NCBI RefSeq assembly: GCF_010672385.1
Contig: NZ_JAAHGT010000024.1
Coordinates: 1 to 38,257 of the forward strand
Reading direction: 5' to 3'
DNA: 38,257 bases
Source of the DNA: Okeania sp. SIO2F4
GTDB taxonomy: Bacteria > Cyanobacteriota > Cyanobacteriia > Cyanobacteriales > Microcoleaceae
How positions within the stretch are numbered: position 1 is the stretch's first letter; each line of letters starts with the position of its first letter. The notes under the pieces are model-generated. The model did not search any database, was not told where the DNA came from, and saw nothing but the letters and a program-made list of their open reading frames with translations. Positions 2,015 through 19,247 of this stretch are shown in pieces. Made by a program: the position numbers and the translations under genes.

Positions 2015-2712
2015 GGAAGTCAGAAGTCAAATTAAAGTCAGATAGGGGAGCCGTCTCCTTGGCGACGTACAGAAGTTGTTTTTATCACGGGGATGCGCGA
2101 GCAACCCTCTAAAAACATTTCGCCTTAAAAGACAAGGAGTTTAAATTTGATAGCGATCGTGTCTGTGGTGTGGAGCATTATCGCTGTGTGAAAAACTTAG
2201 GTAATTTAGGTGATGAGAAAACTAATTTTCTTAATGGCGATGTTTTACTTTATCCAAACCTATGTTAGTAATCCAGGAATTTTTAGTATCTCCCTAGAAC
2301 TATATCTCAAAGAAAATCTTAATTTCAAAGCAGCAGAGTTAACAGCCTTTTTAAGTTTAGCTGCTTTCCCCTGGTTTCTCAAACCAGTTTTGGGATTAAT
2401 TGCTGATAGTTTTACTCTGTTTGGTTATCGCCTCAAAAGTTATTTTATAGTTTGCTATAGTGTGGCAGCGATCGTACTTTTTTATCTAAGTAAATTTCTC
2501 AACTATAAAAATTATATTCTGCTAATTGGTTTAGTAGTTATTTCTGTTTGTATTTCTTTTTCAGATGTTCTTACTGATAAGTTAATGGTTGTTGAAGGCA
2601 AATTGAGAGGGCAAGTATCTGTATTACAAGCATCTCAATGGGCTGCACGGGGTTTGGGTGGAGCATTAATGTATTATTTGGGTGGATGGGTAGCCCAAAA
2701 TGCTAATTTATC

Positions 2713-2995
2713 GTAAGCATTCAGCAGTCAGCTATCAGCTATCAGCTTTATTACCTTTAAAGGAGAAAAAAGCAATTTTATCAAAGCTTCAGAGTACGAA
2801 TCTCTGGTTGAGAATGTAGTAGAAATTAAATGAACGCTTGCTTTATTCATTAGACATCTCCAATCATAAAAAATCAAATCAATTATCCCGCAGCAATTAT
2901 CAATTCTTTCCCCCTATTCTCTACTCCCTACTCCCTCTTTTCTGGAGATGTCTATTAAAAAGTTGATAGCTGACCGCTAATAGCTGAATGTTTAC
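2713..2995 (+). mobile_element. MITE family A, copy 1 (inside the transporter gene)
   Basis: Begins GTAAGCATTCAGC and ends GCTGAATGTTTAC, forming imperfect terminal inverted repeats of about 25 bp rich in CAGCTATCAGC motifs. It is flanked on both sides by the 8-bp duplication AATTTATC (2705-2712 and 2996-3003). GTAA ends with 8-bp duplications are characteristic of the IS66 family, so mobilisation by an IS66 transposase is inferred. No transposase is encoded. It is longer than its sisters because a second element (2851-2954) is nested inside. Confidence 0.85.
2851..2954 (+). mobile_element. Small TA-flanked element nested in MITE A copy 1
   Basis: Inverted ends TAGACATCTCCA and TGGAGATGTCTA lie 104 bp apart and include a TA at each end, the duplication expected of IS630/Tc1-type mobilisation. 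The interior carries a CTCCCTACTCCCT run. A diverged relative of its left half occurs near 33183-33225. Subtracting it brings copy 1 close to the size of the other family A copies. Confidence 0.5.
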
Positions 2996-3760
2996 AATTT
3001 ATCTATAGCTTTTTTGATTACTGCTTTTGTACCTATAGCTGGTTTAATAGCTGCTTTAACAATACTTTCTGAACCCAAAGTACCATTAGAAAAAAATTCT
3101 TGGAAAATTAGTATTAATAGTTTGTGGTTAGCTATAAAATCATGGAAATTTATTACAGTAATTATTTTTATTACTTGCTTTCGCTGTCGTCCAGAACCCC
3201 GTCTATTTTATTATCAACGGGATATCCTAAATTTTAGTGCTGAATTTTTAGGAATTTTAGGGTCTTTAATATCTATATCAATTGCTATTGGAGCTACCCT
3301 ATTTGGAATTTTTGCTCCCAAGTTTCCTTTACCTATACTTTTAAATTTTTGTATGGCACTTAAAGTTACAAATACTATAGCTCTTATATTTATAAGCAAC
3401 GAACAAAGTGCCATATTAATTTGGATATTCTGCGGTATTACAGATGTTATTGCTACTCTAGGGGCTTTAGAAATAGCAGCTCGTAGTTGTCCTAAAAATG
3501 CAGAAGGAACTGCTTATGCTTTATTAATGTCTGTTTGGAATTTTGCTGGTACTCCAGGAATTATATTAGGTGGGTGGTTATGGGATAAAGGAATGAGTTT
3601 TTCTTGGCTGGTTATTCTTTGTACTATATTTAGTGTTTTTTGTTGGTTGCTTCTACCTTTATTGCAGTTAGAAATATTGAGATTCAATTCCGAGCAATAA
3701 GTATAATCATTTCAATTTTTAAATATTATCTGAGGTTCTGAATTTATTAGTAATAATTTG

Positions 3761-3919
3761 GTAAGTATTCAGCTATCAACTACTAATAAGAGGAAGAAGT
3801 AAAAGCAACCCTTGAAATTGAGATAGAATTAAAAGTTACTGCCAAAGTAAGCTCCTTTAATCTTAGAAGGAATTATTCATTATTTGCTGATAGTTGACTG
3901 CTAAGAGCTGAATGCTTAC
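3761..3919 (+). mobile_element. MITE family A, copy 2
   Basis: Begins GTAAGTATTCAGCTATC and ends AGCTGAATGCTTAC. The 8-bp duplication ATAATTTG precedes it (3753-3760) and recurs only at 4024-4031, beyond a family B element abutting its right end. So A and B together occupy one duplicated target. The insertion lies in the 3' end of the minus-strand TPR gene. Confidence 0.75.
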
Positions 3920-4023: not shown

Positions 4024-4928
4024 ATAATTTGTTCTTTGAAACGAGCTGCTTTTTCTCTGACTGAAATTATTTCAGTACCAGCAACTTTTTCTGCTTCAAT
4101 AGCAAATTGCAAAGCTTGTTGATTATTTGCTTGAGCTTTAGCTAATTCAGCAAGTTTTAGTAATGCACCAGCCTCCATATCGGGACGAGAAATTTCCCTA
4201 CTTAATTCCAGACATTCTTGATAGTATTGTTGAGCGCAATAATAACTTTGTTTGGCAAAATGCCCGTCTCCTAAGTTAAGCAAAGGAGCTGTTTGATAAT
4301 AGTTATTTCTATCTCTTAATGACCGATATTTTGCTAATGATAAATTTAGTTCTTGGTAACTTGCATCAAAGTTTTTGAAACTGAGATAACAGCTACCTAA
4401 GACATTCCGCAGTTCTGCTTCTGATTGGAGCAAAATATAACTTTTTTCGGCTTGATTTTTGGAATTTTCATCAACTACTATCTGCAAAGACTTTTGATAA
4501 TAATTTAGAGCTGAACTAAAATCATCTTGGCGATGAAATAATACTCCTAAATAACGGAATAATTTTGACTCTTGGATTGGCTCTTTTAGTAATTGATAAT
4601 TTTGTAATGCCCGATGGAAATATTCTTCGGCTTTTGTGAAATTTTGCCATTCTAAATAAAGCCATCCTAATTCACTTAACAACTGAGCTTCTACTACAGT
4701 ATTATTAATAGTCTTAGCAGCAGATAAAACTATTTGTCCGCAACGAAAATCATCTTGCCAATAGCACCATCTCCAGAAGTTATCACTCGCTTTTTCCCAT
4801 GTCTGATCTAACAAATCAAATGCCCGATGATTTCCAGAAATATCTGGTAGACAAAATTTACTAAAATCTCTTAAATCGCTCCCAACATTTTCTCTTTCTT
4901 CAAGAATATGTAAATTGACATTACCCAT
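3999..4928 (-). CDS. TPR-repeat protein with MITE-derived C-terminus
   Basis: A 309-residue protein. The N-terminal 65 residues (start MGNVNLHILEE, then FWRWCYWQDDF) are unusual and are duplicated in the DNA upstream. From about residue 75 there are five or six tetratricopeptide repeats, for example ELGWLYLEWQNFTKAEEYFH and YLGVLFHRQDDFSSALNYYQ. TPRs are protein-protein interaction scaffolds; in cyanobacteria such arrays often form the C-terminus of HTH-NTPase-TPR proteins. No NTPase is present here, and the HTH genes at 5606-6327 may be the detached N-terminus of such a protein (inference). The last seven residues (YSNFPAR) and the stop come from the family B element; without the insertions the frame would read ITNKFRTSDNI and stop near 3719. 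The start ATG is shared by the repeats upstream. Confidence 0.75.
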   Translation of the reverse strand: MGNVNLHILEERENVGSDLRDFSKFCLPDISGNHRAFDLLDQTWEKASDNFWRWCYWQDDFRCGQIVLSAAKTINNTVVEAQLLSELGWLYLEWQNFTKAEEYFHRALQNYQLLKEPIQESKLFRYLGVLFHRQDDFSSALNYYQKSLQIVVDENSKNQAEKSYILLQSEAELRNVLGSCYLSFKNFDASYQELNLSLAKYRSLRDRNNYYQTAPLLNLGDGHFAKQSYYCAQQYYQECLELSREISRPDMEAGALLKLAELAKAQANNQQALQFAIEAEKVAGTEIISVREKAARFKEQIIYSNFPAR

Positions 4929-5640
4929 ACTTTTTAATTACCTTTTTTTTTTAATAAAATCTCTCATTTAGATGCACTACATTGAACTTGATAAACGTAT
5001 CCGTTCCCTTTTACTTAGGGTTTAGGGAAAATAATCTTGCCAATAGCACCATCTCCAGAAGTCATAACTCGCTTTTTTCCATGTCTGATATAACAACTCA
5101 AATGCCCGATTATTTCCAGAAATATCTGGTAGACAAAATTTACTAAAATCTCTTAAATCGCTCCCAACATTTTCTCTTTCTTCAAGAATATGTAAATTGA
5201 CATTACCCATACTTTTTAATTAACCTTTTTTTTGAAATAAAATCTCTCATCTAGATGCACTACATTGAACTTGATAAACTTCAGCGAAAACCGAAGTGCC
5301 AATAGCACCATCTCCAGAAGTTATCACTCGCTTTTTCCCATGTCTGATCTAACAAATCAAATGCCCGATGATTTCCAGAAATATCTGGTAGACAAAACTT
5401 ACTAAAATCTCTTAAATCGCTCCCAACATTTTCTCTTTCTTCAAGAATATGTAAATTGATATTACCCAGATTTTTTAATTACCTTTTTTTTGAAATAAAA
5501 TCTCTCATCTAGATGCAGTAAATTGTACTTGAGAAACGTATCCGTTCCCTGTTATTTAGGGTTGAGCAAAAATCATCTTGCCAATAGCACCATCTCCAGA
5601 AGTTATCACTCGCTTTTTCCCATGTCTGATCTAAATTGAG
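4758..5640 (-). repeat. Tandem partial copies of the TPR gene 5' end (282-bp period)
   Basis: The landmark CCAATAGCACCATCTCC occurs at 4758, 5040, 5299 and 5581, giving spacings of 282, 259 and 282 bp. Each unit holds codons 1 to about 57 of the TPR gene plus about 110 bp of its upstream DNA (poly-T tract, CTCTCAT, TGAACTTGATAAAC). The 259-bp spacing reflects a junction where a short palindrome (CTTCAGCGAAAACCGAAG) replaces a longer spacer. The unit ending at 5298-5460 has lost its ATG. The last unit is truncated near 5636 and runs into the tail of the HTH gene, supplying its last codons out of frame. Confidence 0.85.
5022..5210 (-). pseudogene. Truncated duplicate of the TPR gene N-terminus
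   Basis: A 62-residue frame almost identical to the start of the TPR protein (MGNVNLHILEERENVGSD, later FWRWCYWQDYFP), ending where the repeat unit ends. It keeps the ATG and upstream DNA, so it could be expressed as a small peptide, but it has no TPRs. A product of the local 282-bp duplication, probably non-functional. Confidence 0.6.
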
Positions 5641-5977
5641 TTTTTATTAGGTCGTTATCCCTTGGATTTTTATTAGATTTGCTGGGAGTATTTGTTGGTG
5701 ATATAGAGGAGTTTTGAGTAAGTAATTTTTTCTCTAATACTCGCACAACATTTCTTTTACCAACTATTTCTCCAAGTGCCTTAGAAAGAATCTCACACCA
5801 TTCACTACCAACATTTTTGGCAGTGCTTAAATTACAGGGGCAATCTTGAGCAATTTGCTCGTAAGTTTTGCCTTGTAAAACACCATGAAATATGTTTATT
5901 TGTAATTCAGTCTTAGCTTTGCCAGTTTGGCGGGTAACTATTGACTCTGCAAATTCTAATAATTCTTCAGTCTTCAT
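5606..5977 (-). CDS. Standalone HTH protein (VMAP/AAA-associated type N-terminal domain)
   Basis: A 123-residue protein. Residues 1-82 (MKTEELLEFAESIVTRQTGK, later LQGKTYEQIAQDCPCNLSTA) resemble the helix-turn-helix found at the N-terminus of many cyanobacterial AAA-like, NB-ARC and TPR proteins. Here no NTPase follows: a Ser/Asn-rich linker leads to SDMGKSE, which is the neighbouring TPR duplication read in the wrong frame. So either the gene is a truncated receptor-like regulator or the HTH acts alone. It is preceded by a strong set of 10-bp iterons, which suggests autoregulation. A degenerate paralogue lies directly upstream. Domain identity is from memory of the family. Confidence 0.6.
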   Translation of the reverse strand: MKTEELLEFAESIVTRQTGKAKTELQINIFHGVLQGKTYEQIAQDCPCNLSTAKNVGSEWCEILSKALGEIVGKRNVVRVLEKKLLTQNSSISPTNTPSKSNKNPRDNDLIKTQFRSDMGKSE

Positions 5978-6040
5978 TTATGAAACCTTCTTATTTAATT
6001 TTTAGCTTGATGCCTTAAGCAATAATACCTTTTTACTATA

Positions 6041-6101
6041 ACCCAACTTTTGGCAACTTTTGGCAACTTTTGGCAACCTTTATCAACCTTTACCAACTTT
6101 A
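6041..6101 (-). promoter_or_regulatory. 10-bp iterons upstream of the HTH gene
   Basis: Three exact direct copies of TTTTGGCAAC in the plus-strand reading, followed by the relatives CTTTATCAAC and CTTTACCAAC, all at a 10-bp period (about one helical turn). The array lies 60-125 bp upstream of the HTH start. The paralogous HTH remnant has the same array (6391-6446). A regularly phased binding site for the adjacent HTH protein is a reasonable inference. Confidence 0.55.
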
Positions 6102-6132
6102 AAATTGGCGACTTTATCCAACTAGACAAATA

Positions 6133-6327
6133 CTAAAGAATCTTATACCATTCACTACCAATATTTCTGGCATTGCGTAAATCACATGGGCAATATTGAG
6201 AAATTTGATTGTAACTTTTGCCTTGTAAAACACCACAAAATATTTTTATTTTCAATTCAGTTTGAGCTTTGCCAGTTTGGCGGGTAACTATTGATTCTGC
6301 AAATTCTAATAATTCTTCAGTCTTCAT
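6133..6327 (-). pseudogene. Truncated paralogue of the HTH gene
   Basis: A 64-residue frame sharing its first 20 residues exactly with the HTH protein at 5606-5977, then diverging moderately (SYNQISQYCPCDLRNARNIG) before a stop after EWYKIL. That is about 20 residues short of the end of the HTH domain. The upstream 100 bp, including iterons, is duplicated too, so this is a tandem gene duplication with one decayed member. Expression as a short HTH peptide that competes for DNA cannot be excluded. Confidence 0.6.
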
Positions 6328-6390
6328 TTATAAAAGCTTCTTATTTAATTTTTAGCTTGAGGCATCAAGCAATAATACATTTTTAGTATA

Positions 6391-6446
6391 ACCCAACTTT
6401 TGGCAACTTTTGGCAACCTTTATAAACTTTAAATTGGCAACTTTAT
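6391..6446 (-). promoter_or_regulatory. Second iteron set, upstream of the truncated HTH gene
   Basis: ACCCAAC followed by two exact TTTTGGCAAC units, CTTTATAAAC, and a separated TTGGCAAC. It is the duplicated counterpart of the array at 6041-6101 with one fewer perfect unit. Confidence 0.5.
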
Positions 6447-6522
6447 ACAACTAGGAAAATACTGTTGGATAGGCTATTATTTGTTTGTAATTAATTAGTC
6501 AAGACTACTGAAACTTAGATGT

Positions 6523-6715
6523 TAATTTTTGGTAGATATAGTTTTTCTGGCTTCAGTCAGTCAGAAATAACTTTGTCATTTTCAGCCTAAATTTTTCTAG
6601 TCGTAAGTTTCCGAAAGTAATATTCACAACTCAAAAAATAGGAGAAAAGCTATGAATTTTTCCAGTGCTTTATCATGTTTGAAAAAGCAAACTAACTTAG
6701 CATTATTTCTCAGTG
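6523..6715 (+). repeat. PEP-CTERM leader cassette, copy 1
   Basis: From TAATTTTTGGTAGATA through the 5' leader, the AATAGGAGAAAAG ribosome-binding site and about the first 22 codons (MNFSSALSCLKKQTNLALFL), this DNA is nearly identical to 7763-7960; its last 64 non-coding bases and start of coding also match 8916-9045. In copies 1 and 2 the distance from GGTAGAT to the ATG is 121 bp. Confidence 0.8.
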
Positions 6716-7596
6716 CAACTTTGACACCGTTCTCTGTATTTTCTTTACCCGCTCAAGCCTCAGTTTTACACAATGGTTGGTCTTATTCCATAGATTCTTT
6801 TAATGACAGTATACAGAATAATAATGTTGGTGGTACAGATTATGAAATATATAGTACGGCTGTAAAAGCAACTGCTAATGAATTAATCTTTGCTATTAAT
6901 TCTAATTTGTCTTTAGGGGGTGTATATAATCAGTTTGCAGATGATAAACATACAACCTATGGCGATTTAATTATTAATCCCACTGGTGCAAGTTTTGATG
7001 CTGCAAATAGTAGTGGAAATCTATTGGCTATTCGCTTTGCTAGTCAGAATGATTCAGGTGTATCTGGATTAGGTTTTTTTGGTAGCGTAACTGCTAAATC
7101 TATTGCTACTGAAAATGGCTTATTATTTAATAATTTAGCAGCTTATAATAATTATGTAACTAACAATGGAGGAAATCCTAGTAATGGAGATTTAGCAGCT
7201 TCCGATCCTTATTTTAATAAAGGTACTCATGTTCCAAATGTTATCAACTCAGGTGTGAAAATTGGTGATATTAATTTCGTGTCTGATGTTGGTGCTTTAG
7301 GTTTAGATTTTGGTTATTTCGGAGCAGTTGGTAGCCAAACAATAGCACTTAGTGTCGATCGCTCTATCTTGCCTGAAAATCATTTTAATTGGGTATATCA
7401 TATTAATCCAGAATGTAATAATGATGTCACAATAGGAATAATTGATACGGCTTTCTTAGATTATATTCCGGAAGAATCGTCTATAGATGAAAAGAAAGCA
7501 GATAGAATAGGAAGTACACCCGAACCTTCTGTATTATTAGGCTTAGGAATGGTAGGTTTAGGCTTGGGAGTTTGCCGTCGGCGTCAAGTTTGTTAA
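6652..7596 (+). CDS. XDD-like exosortase-dependent (PEP-CTERM) surface protein
   Basis: A 314-residue secreted protein. The N-terminus (KKQTNLALFLSATLTPFSVF...LPAQAS) is a signal peptide with likely cleavage after AQA. The C-terminus has a textbook PEP-CTERM tripartite tag: TPEPSVLLGLGMVGLG helix followed by CRRRQ, recognised by exosortase/archaeosortase enzymes for surface anchoring. The body resembles the XDD families of exosortase-dependent proteins: ATANELIFAIN, GDLIINP, VGALGLDFGYF, SQTIALSVDRSILP and an ECNNDV motif near the end. The ribosome-binding site AGGAG precedes the ATG by 8 bp. A hairpin terminator follows. Exact ligand or role is unknown. It is the only intact member of the local three-gene set. 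Confidence 0.85.
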   Translation: MNFSSALSCLKKQTNLALFLSATLTPFSVFSLPAQASVLHNGWSYSIDSFNDSIQNNNVGGTDYEIYSTAVKATANELIFAINSNLSLGGVYNQFADDKHTTYGDLIINPTGASFDAANSSGNLLAIRFASQNDSGVSGLGFFGSVTAKSIATENGLLFNNLAAYNNYVTNNGGNPSNGDLAASDPYFNKGTHVPNVINSGVKIGDINFVSDVGALGLDFGYFGAVGSQTIALSVDRSILPENHFNWVYHINPECNNDVTIGIIDTAFLDYIPEESSIDEKKADRIGSTPEPSVLLGLGMVGLGLGVCRRRQVC

Positions 7597-7636
7597 TAGT
7601 TTTTACTCTGTAAAAGTTGAATATTCAATTCTTATC

Positions 7637-7676
7637 AAAAGCCCGGTTTTTTTTGAATAAATCGGGTTTATTATAC
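7637..7676 (+). terminator. Probable terminator after the first PEP-CTERM gene
   Basis: AAGCCCGGTTT and AAATCGGGTTT pair as a stem with one G-T wobble around a T-rich loop, followed by TATTATA. It lies 40 bp after the stop codon. There is no long 3' U-tract, so the call is moderate. Confidence 0.5.
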
Positions 7677-7706
7677 AGAGCTTCTCATATTAATGAGATA
7701 CAGCTA

Positions 7707-7760
7707 GTAGGTTGGGTTGAGGAACGATATTCGTAGCTTATCCGCAGGATAAACCCAACA
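7707..7760. repeat. Dispersed GTAGGTTGGGTT palindromic repeat, copy 1
   Basis: GTAGGTTGGGTTGAGGAACG at the left pairs with AAACCCAACA at the right. A shorter copy is at 23729-23758. This motif is a common interspersed repeat in cyanobacterial genomes. Confidence 0.6.
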
Positions 7761-7762
7761 TA

Positions 7763-7960
7763 TAATTTTTGGTAGATACAGTTTTTATGGCTTCAGTCAG
7801 TCAGAAATAATTTTGTTATTTTCAGCCTCAATTTTTCTAGTCGTAAGTTTCCAAAAGTAATATTCACAACTCAAAAAATAGGAGAAAAGATATGAATTTT
7901 ACGGGTGCTTTATCAGTTTTGAAAAAGCAAGCTAATTTTCCATTGTTTCTTGATGTAACT
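7763..7960 (+). repeat. PEP-CTERM leader cassette, copy 2
   Basis: Duplicate of 6523-6715, with the same 121 bp between GGTAGAT and the ATG and the same AATAGGAGAAAAG ribosome-binding site. Similarity continues about 22 codons into the gene (MNFTGALSVLKKQANFPLFL) and then stops. Confidence 0.8.
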
Positions 7961-8918
7961 ACAATCTTTTCTTTACTAAACCGCAAAAAGTTGGTAAGGA
8001 TTTTTCTCCCTTTTATTGCTGGTAGTTTCTCAGTAATCCAAGTTAACCCTTCTCTAGCTGCAACCCTTGTTAATTGGGATACAATTGGCTGGCAAGATAC
8101 TGTTCTCAATCAAGAATTACAGTCAAGTAACAATACCATTAAAATTGATTTTACATTGGGTAGTGAGGCTCAACTTGTTAATTTTGGCGGGGCGATGACG
8201 CCGAGTGTGAGTGGAATTTTGAATGGGAGTAATCCTGATTCTGGCGAAAATATCGATCAATCTTTACCAAAAAAATGTGGTTTAAAGCCTCTCCTTTTAA
8301 GGGGATAATAAATAAAAATTTTCTTTTGAGTCAATCCTATCCGTTTTCAAGGAGAGGTAAATTATTAATTATTAATTATTAATTATTAATTGTTGAAACC
8401 TTCAGCTAGATGCTTCTCAAGTGGGAGCTTTTGCAGACAATCCTGCATTATATAGTGCTACAATGAATGTGAATTTTTCCGAGAGCGATCGCCTGTTTTC
8501 TGATGTTTCCTTTATGCTCTATGACATCGACATCGGTTCTGTGTGGCAAGACCGCGTATCTATAATCGGATTTAGTAGTAATGGCGAAATTGCTCCAGAA
8601 TTTACCATTGAAAATACCGACTATGTGGAACAAGTTGATAATTACACGTTGGATGGTATCAAAAATTCTAGCAATGATGTAGATACCAGTAATGTATTGG
8701 TTTCTTTTAGCAGTTCAATTTCTGGTTTTCATTTGATATTCACTGATGGTGACGATATCGAAAGCAGTATCGACCCAAGTAGTCATGGAATTGGAATTGG
8801 TGATATCTATTACACACAAGAGCCTAATGATGTTCCAGAACCTGCTTCTACTCTTGGATTGTTAGTTTTAGGTATCATAGGACTTTATTCTCGACTTAAA
8901 ACACGCCGTTCATACTAA
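7892..8918 (+). pseudogene. PEP-CTERM surface protein split by a 136-bp insertion
   Basis: The 5' part (7892-8267) encodes the shared cassette peptide, then a second signal peptide (NRKKLVRIFLPFIAGSFSV, ending SLAA) and a beta-rich start of the mature protein (TLVNWDTIGWQDTVLN). The 3' part (8404-8918) continues QLDASQVGAFADN and ends in a PEP-CTERM tag (VPEPASTLGLLVLGIIG, then RLKTRR). Deleting 8268-8403 joins IDQSL to QLDAS and yields 297 codons in one frame. As it stands, translation stops at 8308 after frame-shifted residues. The double N-terminus suggests the cassette was grafted in front of an older signal peptide. The mature domain is not a family I can name. Confidence 0.75.
8268..8403. 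mobile_element. 136-bp insertion in a PEP-CTERM gene
   Basis: Boundaries are set by restoring the reading frame. It contains an internal inverted repeat (CCTCTCCTTTTAAGGGGATA facing TATCC...CAAGGAGAGG) and a heptanucleotide run (AATTATT, about 4.6 units, 8359-8391). No target duplication is evident and the left flank is TTAC. This fits a mini-element mobilised by an IS200/IS605-type HUH transposase (IS608 inserts 3' of TTAC), but this is inference. Confidence 0.5.
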
Positions 8919-9045
8919 ATTTTTCTAGTTGTAAGTTTCTGAAAGTAATATTCACAACTCAAAAATAGGAGAAAAGCTATGAATTTTCCGGGTGCTTTGT
9001 CATTTTTGAAAAAGCAAACTAATTTAGCATTCTTTCTTGGTGCAG
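8916..9045 (+). repeat. PEP-CTERM leader cassette, copy 3 (partial)
   Basis: Starts exactly at the previous gene's stop codon (TAAATTTTTCTAG) and matches the last 63-64 bp of leader copies 1 and 2 plus the first 22 or so codons (MNFPGALSFLKKQTNLAFFL). The upstream half of the leader is absent. Confidence 0.75.
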
Positions 9046-9830
9046 CTACGAACTACAAAATCAACCTTCCTCTGGCGATCGCAACTAATCTCGTCATTGG
9101 ATTATCGGCGATCGTTCCTGTAGCTGCCCAAGAAATTAAACCGATTGAAAGTGACACAACAGATATTATTGAAATTCTTGATGAATTTCAGGAATTATTT
9201 GTTCAAGAGGAGCGCTTACCTATAGAGAATCCAGAGCTTTTGCAGTTAGACCCGACAAAGCTAATTTTAGCAGAAGATTATGATGTTCGCTTGTATTTTA
9301 TTAATGAGGGAGCTGCAGCCAAAAATCAGTTAGGATTTACCGCAACAAATGGAGTCAATTCTCAGGAATCATTGGCTTTTGATAATATTTCTTGTCACAT
9401 CAGCAATGCTGATTGTCAATTACCCAGTGAAGATGGGGTTTGAAATATTGGTGATTATGTAGAATTGGGCAGCTTTACTGCTGGAACAAAGTTGGATTTT
9501 TGGTTACTTGCTAATGGGTTTAATAATCCCGATCCGCTGTATCCTTATGGTGCCGATCCGGCATTAAATCCTGATGGTCTTGAACATCTAGTTGCTTGGG
9601 AATATGAAAATTATGTTGTCTTAGGATTTGAAGATTTGTATGGTCCTCTTGGGGCAACTGACCCACCCAATCAAAACTCAGACCGCGATTTTAATGATGT
9701 GGTATTTGTATTAGATTTACCTCTGCTTAAAGAAAAGCCTGCTTCTACTCCAGAACCTGCTTCTACTCTTGGATTCTTAGTTTTAGCTATCATGGGACTT
9801 TATTCTCGACTTAAAACACGCCGTTCATAA
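8979..9830 (+). pseudogene. DUF4114-type PEP-CTERM protein with one in-frame stop
   Basis: 284 codons in one frame, broken only by TGA at codon 155 (9441-9443). The N-terminus is the shared cassette peptide followed by a second signal peptide (NYKINLPLAIATNLVIG, ending VAAQ); its first residue position reads ACG where an ATG may once have stood. After the stop the frame continues NIGDYVELGSFTAGTKLDFW, then NPDGLEHLVAW, VLGFEDL and SDRDFNDVVF, the signature of the DUF4114 domain. It ends TPEPASTLGFLVLAIMG with RLKTRR. Both ends therefore match the preceding gene at the DNA level, while the middle does not. Without stop read-through only a 154-residue fragment lacking the sorting tag would be made. 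Confidence 0.8.
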
Positions 9831-18077: not shown

Positions 18078-19247
18078 TCATCCACAGGCATCAACGGTCA
18101 AGCCGACCGCATCCCTTGAGTGCGTCTTGCATTCTGTTCGCAGAGCGTTTCCCCAGGAAATGGAGACATCAGAATTACGCACTCGCTTTTTTAAATTAAT
18201 ACTTGCATTCAAGTCCAGATCTATAGATAAGCCACATTCAGAGCAATCATAAGTTCTAAGGCTTAAGGGCATATCTTGAACATGAGCGCACCTACTGCAA
18301 GTCTTTGACGATGGGAAAAATCTATCTACTACTACGAGTTGCTGACCGTACCATTGGCACTTATATTCTAGCTGTCGTCTAAACTCATAAAAGCACTGTC
18401 TGCTAATTGATTTAGCTAGCTTGTGGTTAGCTAACATTCCACTGATGTTCAAATCTTCTATGACAACACTGCCGTGGTTCTTGGCTTACGTATGTTGTCA
18501 ATTTATGAAGTGCGTCTTTACGCATATTAGTTACCCGTCTGTGTTGCCTGGTTAACTTGATTACAGTTTTGTACCAATTATTTGAATACTTGACTTTTCT
18601 ACTAACTTGACGTTGCAGTAAGGTCAGTTTTTTCTCGGCTTTTCTATATGGTTTTATACTAGGAAACACTTTCCCATCACTTAAAGTAGCTAGGGTTTTC
18701 ACTCCCAAATCTACACCTATCACATCAGTTTTTTTGGGTGTTATCTGAGGATGAAATTCAAAACTACAGCTAAGATACCAATCTCCTGCTTGCCTACTAA
18801 TAGTTATTCTCTGAGCTGTTGCCTCACTCTTGTTCATAAGTTTTGACAATTGCCTTGAAAAGGTAATTTATGATTCCATCCGTTTAATTATATGGGCTTT
18901 CCACAATTATCAATTGTGAAAGAATCACACCTGCCTTTCTTCTTAAATCTTGTATATTTACCCAACACTTTAAAGAATCTTTTAAACGCTTCACCCAAGT
19001 TGATGAAAGCATATTGATAAACTTTAGATGACAGGTTTTTCATCCAAGAATAAAGTGGTTTAGTGTGATTGGTAAACACTTCTTTGAGTTTACGTTTGCG
19101 CAGCATTCCGAAGGAAACATTAGGCTTGTAACCATCAATATATGCAGCATTCCATAAACTTAAACCCCAGTTATAACACCAGCGTGAATAGCCAGCGTGT
19201 TGAGCCATTAGAGTTTTCTGTTTATTATTAAGTTTCAGCTTTGTTAA
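18078..19247 (-). pseudogene. tnpB: IS200/IS605-family TnpB remnant
   Basis: TnpB is the RNA-guided RuvC-type nuclease of IS200/IS605 elements. Three overlapping pieces are visible. The N-terminal part (19247-18888) has LKLNNKQKTLMAQHAGYSRW in frame, without a start codon. The middle part (18849-18427) has RuvC-I VIGVDLGVKTLATLSDG. The C-terminal part (18452-18078) has the four-cysteine zinc ribbon (CSRC...CSEC) and RuvC-III DLDLNASINL. The RuvC-II glutamate block GSVVIEDLNISG is in a different frame from the middle part because of one extra G near 18480, and an in-frame TAA follows GKPI. All three catalytic acids survive, but the frame is broken in at least three places. Confidence 0.85.

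Follow-up and report, generated by a model that had tools for sequence, protein, structure and literature searches.

Why do three adjacent genes for unrelated surface proteins begin with almost the same DNA? PEP-CTERM/exosortase surface proteins of cyanobacteria consist of a signal peptide, an unrelated body and a C-terminal tag, and the three genes studied here have the same components. They depart from that system in that their unrelated bodies have a common 5' end and in that two of the proteins carry an N-terminal stretch added before the signal peptide. We analysed the array in a window of 38,257 nucleotides from the marine, filamentous cyanobacterium Okeania sp. SIO2F4, on contig C670 of a 10.2-Mb genome in 1,512 contigs. 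The array is flanked by a creatininase-like gene on one side and a glycogen phosphorylase gene on the other, and all of its features lie on the plus strand. An earlier note on this DNA placed the feature at 6523-9045 and read it as an exchangeable cassette, a possible means of diversifying surface proteins; the end of that range falls inside gene 3, and the feature extends to 9830. We consider it likely that duplication of part of a 5' end joined one promoter and start to further PEP-CTERM genes and that the array then decayed.

The common 5' segment is confined to the array and to a few relatives. A search of the whole genome, which the earlier note had proposed, found the segment only at this array (n=3 copies; E 1e-102, 1.4e-70 and 3.4e-46, far beyond chance). 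No further real copies were present in the 10-Mb genome, where the remaining matches had E values of 0.08 or worse; those between 0.08 and 1 were rejected because they sit inside unrelated genes or random sequence. Among 62 genomes of the family, the segment occurs besides only in G002 (Hydrocoleum sp. CS-953, Microcoleaceae, of the same genus as our genome, G000), G003 and G013. Two order-level matches, in G038 and G040, were discarded as carriers, as they are not at matching gene starts.

Within the array, 6523-6720 and 7763-7960 are 89% identical over 198 nt, and a third copy starts from 8909. The leader of gene 1 (6453-6651) is the longest form of the common region and aligns with the remnant in G013, where 6453-6720 matches contig C440 at 85.1% identity over 269 bp. 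Gene 1 follows at 6652-7596, with its common N-terminal stretch, MNFSSALSCLKKQTNLALFLSAT, at 6652-6720. The leader of gene 2 (7763-7891), recognised from the 89% match, is bordered upstream by a dispersed repeat, TAGGTTGGGTTGAGG...AACCCAACAT (7708-7761), a 15-mer of which recurs at other loci in this genome and in relatives; the common coding stretch of gene 2 is 7892-7960. The leader of gene 3 (8909-8978), located by similarity search and by reading out the junction, abuts the tag of gene 2, and the common coding stretch here is 8979-9047. A leader of about 125 bp plus a run of codons had been described for all three genes. The codons (23-25) are indeed common to all three, and the full leader is found before genes 1 and 2 only; that of gene 3 is about 63 bp long and begins directly after the gene 2 tag. 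Moreover, the 3' boundary of the common coding stretch varies between copies.

The leader is better conserved than the codons that follow it. In the ~61 bp immediately preceding the start codon, identity is 97% between genes 1 and 2, 97% between genes 1 and 3, and 93% between genes 2 and 3, compared with 80%, 86% and 86%, respectively, over the opening 69 bases of the coding region. In the pair of genes 1 and 2 this amounts to 59/61 versus 55/69 positions (Fisher p 0.003, uncorrected); the uncorrected values for the other pairs are 0.035 (genes 1 and 3) and 0.17 (genes 2 and 3). The higher identity of the leader fits either constraint on the leader or homogenisation. Between paralogues, dN/dS over the 69-bp stretch ranges from 0.3 to 2.7 and, at such short length, is too noisy to be informative. 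The leader had no match in Rfam, a promoter scan of it returned no convincing promoter, and a pattern scan of viral contigs gave no match.

The bodies behind these starts are unrelated, as had been claimed. Gene 1 is an intact ORF for a 314-aa exosortase-dependent surface protein of the XDD3 family (NF041930, 191.6 bits against a cut-off of 80), and gene 3 (8979-9830) encodes a DUF4114 PEP-CTERM protein (PF13448, 43.3 bits against 27) with homologues in the family that are 30-46% identical. The body of gene 2 belongs to a separate, unnamed family, whose members in scattered cyanobacteria are 32-47% identical to it. When profiles of the three body groups were compared, only 27-42 columns aligned, near the C terminus, which is where the tags are found. 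All three genes score above the TIGR02595 cut-off of 16 (24, 19.2 and 17.6 bits), and the 3' part of gene 2 also exceeds the cut-off of PEP-CTERM PF07589, with 22.6 bits. The genome encodes an exosortase homologue (PF09721, 191.7 bits), so gene 1, the one gene that encodes an intact, secretable protein, may still be sorted; genes 2 and 3 are interrupted.

Gene 1 has one signal peptide, which includes the common stretch. Genes 2 and 3 have a second, complete signal peptide behind the stretch, as the earlier note had recognised: RKKLVRIFLPFIAGSFSVIQVNPSLAA (7982-8062) in gene 2 and NYKINLPLAIATNLVIGLSAIVPVAA (9051-9128) in gene 3 fall where their respective homologues (L092-L096 for gene 2; L052 and L057-L059 for gene 3) have their only signal peptide. 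Since the homologues begin at the position of this second signal peptide, the N-terminal addition is foreign to both genes. An ACG in gene 3 had been taken for a decayed ATG, and this reading does not survive comparison with relatives. The end of the common stretch reads GCAGCTACGAACTAC in gene 3, with G013 identical there, and GCAACTACGATC in gene 2 of both G002 and G003. The same ACG is present in all of these copies and therefore belongs to the common segment; it is no mutated start.

Genes 2 and 3 also have near-identical 3' ends, an observation that we could reproduce: their sorting-tag DNA is 96% identical over 81 bp (8834-8914 in gene 2 and 9749-9829 in gene 3). The PEP-CTERM tag of gene 1 differs in type, and the genome yielded no third copy of the 81-bp tag DNA. 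The tag of gene 2 in G002 (98% over 115 bp) runs straight into the flank that here follows gene 3. This join would follow equally well if the gene 3 unit was acquired in our genome or if G002 lost it through recombination between tags.

Most of the array is damaged, and gene 1 is its only intact gene. Gene 2 is split by a dispersed MITE-like repeat of ~130 bp (8270-8399), recognised by its genome matches, with inverted arms at 8288-8307 and 8338-8357. The 5' part of gene 2 (7892-8308) has an orthologous fusion in G002, and in G003 this survives as a relic, and the 3' part (8397-8918) matches homologues over 8397-8819. At E <= 1e-5 the repeat has at least 42 matches in the genome, several of them 99% identical; scoring 40 of 790 candidates put the number of copies detected at about 40. 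Gene 3 contains an in-frame TGA (9441-9443) at a position where homologues have Leu. Both lesions, the repeat in gene 2 and the TGA, had been overlooked in the first reading. The relatives fare no better, as every copy of the segment in them is a broken or truncated gene or a remnant. G002 has an in-frame TAA in gene 1 and has lost most of the gene 2 body, G003 retains only pieces of gene 2 around a transposon, and in G013 the segment lies at another position in the genome and continues into unrelated sequence.

How old are the fusions? In G002 and G003, the array sits between the same neighbour genes as here. A tree of the segment, built on about 140 sites, joins the gene 2 type of G000, G002 and G003 (bootstrap 96) and places gene 3 with G013 (89). 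Copies from different genomes thus cluster by gene type and not by genome or species, which indicates that the fusions are old and gives no sign of current exchange. Read from these sequences, the gene 2 fusion must be older than the split of G000, G002 and G003. The gene 3 type is likewise older, by its grouping, than the separation from G013's genus. The glycogen phosphorylase genes of G013 and G000 are 87% identical, a divergence that matches the 85-90% identity of the segment, so that the gene 3 type plausibly comes from the common ancestor.

One part of the array has a different history. The stretch 6618-8003, which extends from the leader of gene 1 to the beginning of gene 2, is 97.1% identical over 1,386 bp to positions 2384-3769 of the Hydrocoleum CS-953 locus (L041). 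Between G000 and G002, dS is 0.038 for gene 1 and 0.24 for each of the two flanking genes (Fisher p 4e-10 and 1e-7). The low dS of gene 1 against its flanks demonstrates that the gene 1-gene 2 stretch has been exchanged between lineages, by a route that we infer.

Chimeric genes can form through partial 5' duplication, in which the promoter and start codons of one gene are fused to another. The array has the same layout and differs from such chimeras in nothing beyond its secreted context. We propose that the founding event was a duplication of the 5' end of gene 1, which would have placed one assumed promoter, a leader, a ribosome-binding site, a start codon and the first half of a signal peptide ahead of two further PEP-CTERM genes. 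Both of these would have retained, farther downstream, the signal peptide that they already had. The likeliest donor is gene 1; this is the simplest reading because the segment is part of its only signal peptide. An ancestral link between this signal peptide and those of other XDD3 proteins was not significant, as it was not significantly closer to them than shuffled sequences (best z about 2), and the donor is thus unproven. Homologous recombination on repeats would subsequently have duplicated or homogenised the tag of genes 2 and 3, and recombination from tag to tag would have added the gene 3 unit here or removed it in G002. The gene 1-gene 2 segment passed between lineages, and the locus is now being worn down by an inserted repeat, nonsense mutations and deletions. 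Among the genomes examined, we found no intermediate of the fusion, and the copy elsewhere in G013 is a relocation that tandem duplication alone leaves unexplained. What stands of the promoter and leader capture suggested earlier is that one 5' end, comprising leader, ribosome site, start codon and N-terminal peptide, precedes three bodies, two of which have their own signal peptide, so that capture of a 5' end describes the array fairly; the mechanism of fusion is one that we infer. We find no support for an exchangeable cassette for diversifying surface proteins: the copies track gene type, their 3' boundary is variable and most are broken.

Could the array nevertheless be an active diversification system, with the leader and N-terminus at one end and the tag at the other acting as recombination arms for the swapping of the bodies between them, to yield variable surface proteins? 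Unrelated bodies do sit between similar ends, the leader is the better conserved part, the segment has passed between lineages and an exosortase homologue is available. The phase-variable vsp and vpma lipoprotein families of mycoplasmas likewise have bodies that vary behind a 5' region and signal sequence that are conserved. However, phase or antigenic variation calls for several silent or expressed copies with intact bodies in one genome and for a recombinase or invertible repeats at the locus. Here the copies number three, all local, and two are broken, as are those of relatives; neither long inverted repeats across the array nor a recombinase among the ORFs read was found. Unlike vsp and vpma, the copies are few, mostly broken and stable by gene type across species. 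Moreover, the gene 1 tag differs, so that two fixed ends exist only in genes 2 and 3. Such a system is very unlikely. There is a slim chance that the similar 5' ends and tags serve as homology arms in other strains, where the array would be active, and that the copy here is worn out; if true, such arms would let bodies be replaced and segments move between species. Duplication of whole genes in tandem, followed by divergence of the bodies, would account for the tandem order, the common leaders and the common 3' ends of genes 2 and 3, and the gene 2-gene 3 junction resembles a duplication joint. For the bodies, this explanation is refuted by three families that each have separate homologues in other cyanobacteria, and the extra signal peptide of genes 2 and 3 also speaks against it. 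It is possible for the ends only, and as an account of the array we find it very unlikely. The earlier note had tied simple tandem duplication to a cassette found only here and to proteins homologous throughout. In this genome the cassette is indeed found only here, but the proteins are not homologous throughout.

That the segment is a small mobile element with an outward start site is very improbable. A mobile element or MITE should have many copies with constant ends, but the whole genome holds three, with no common 5' or 3' end, and no terminal inverted repeats were seen. The different location in G013 would suit an element, as would the last 88 bp of a G002 contig (C434), which match the segment exactly; we set the latter aside as doubtful, because the contig has an N and an internally duplicated P450 stretch nearby. 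Selection might also keep the leader because a set of co-regulated genes uses it in common, as a promoter or as a 5' regulatory region, with the codons as a by-product. The leader is more conserved than the codons, and Proteobacterial PEP-CTERM genes have a common upstream regulatory DNA sequence (PMC1569441). However, the leader motif has no matches upstream of other genes in this genome, the Rfam and promoter searches gave it no support and two of the three genes are broken, which makes this reading very unlikely.

The array is best read as the relic of an old duplication and not as a working diversification system. It provides a clear natural case, dated through relatives, in which a leader and half a signal peptide were joined to secreted proteins already equipped with a signal peptide. 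PEP-CTERM genes of Nostoc and Anabaena are reported to undergo rapid duplication and loss (PMC1569441), and the array shows how fast such gene sets turn over in its own group. It also cautions that similar-looking cassettes can be relics when the genome is, like this one, rich in repeats. A relic would fit the picture drawn in a review of the marine cyanobacterium Trichodesmium, where noncoding DNA makes up about 40% and numerous in-paralogues have been inactivated (PMC3655545).

Just upstream of the array, 4900-6430 contains several tandem duplications nested in one another, of 296 bp (89%), 221 bp (89%) and 194 bp (90%), and the copies at 5785-6430 contain a short reverse-strand ORF of unknown family. 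These nearby duplications of unrelated sequence show that the region duplicates readily. A BT1/MFS transporter gene at 2210-3700 lies in two frames and is likely a pseudogene, and a broken transposon gene of the IS605-type OrfB/TnpB kind occupies 18078-19208 on the minus strand.
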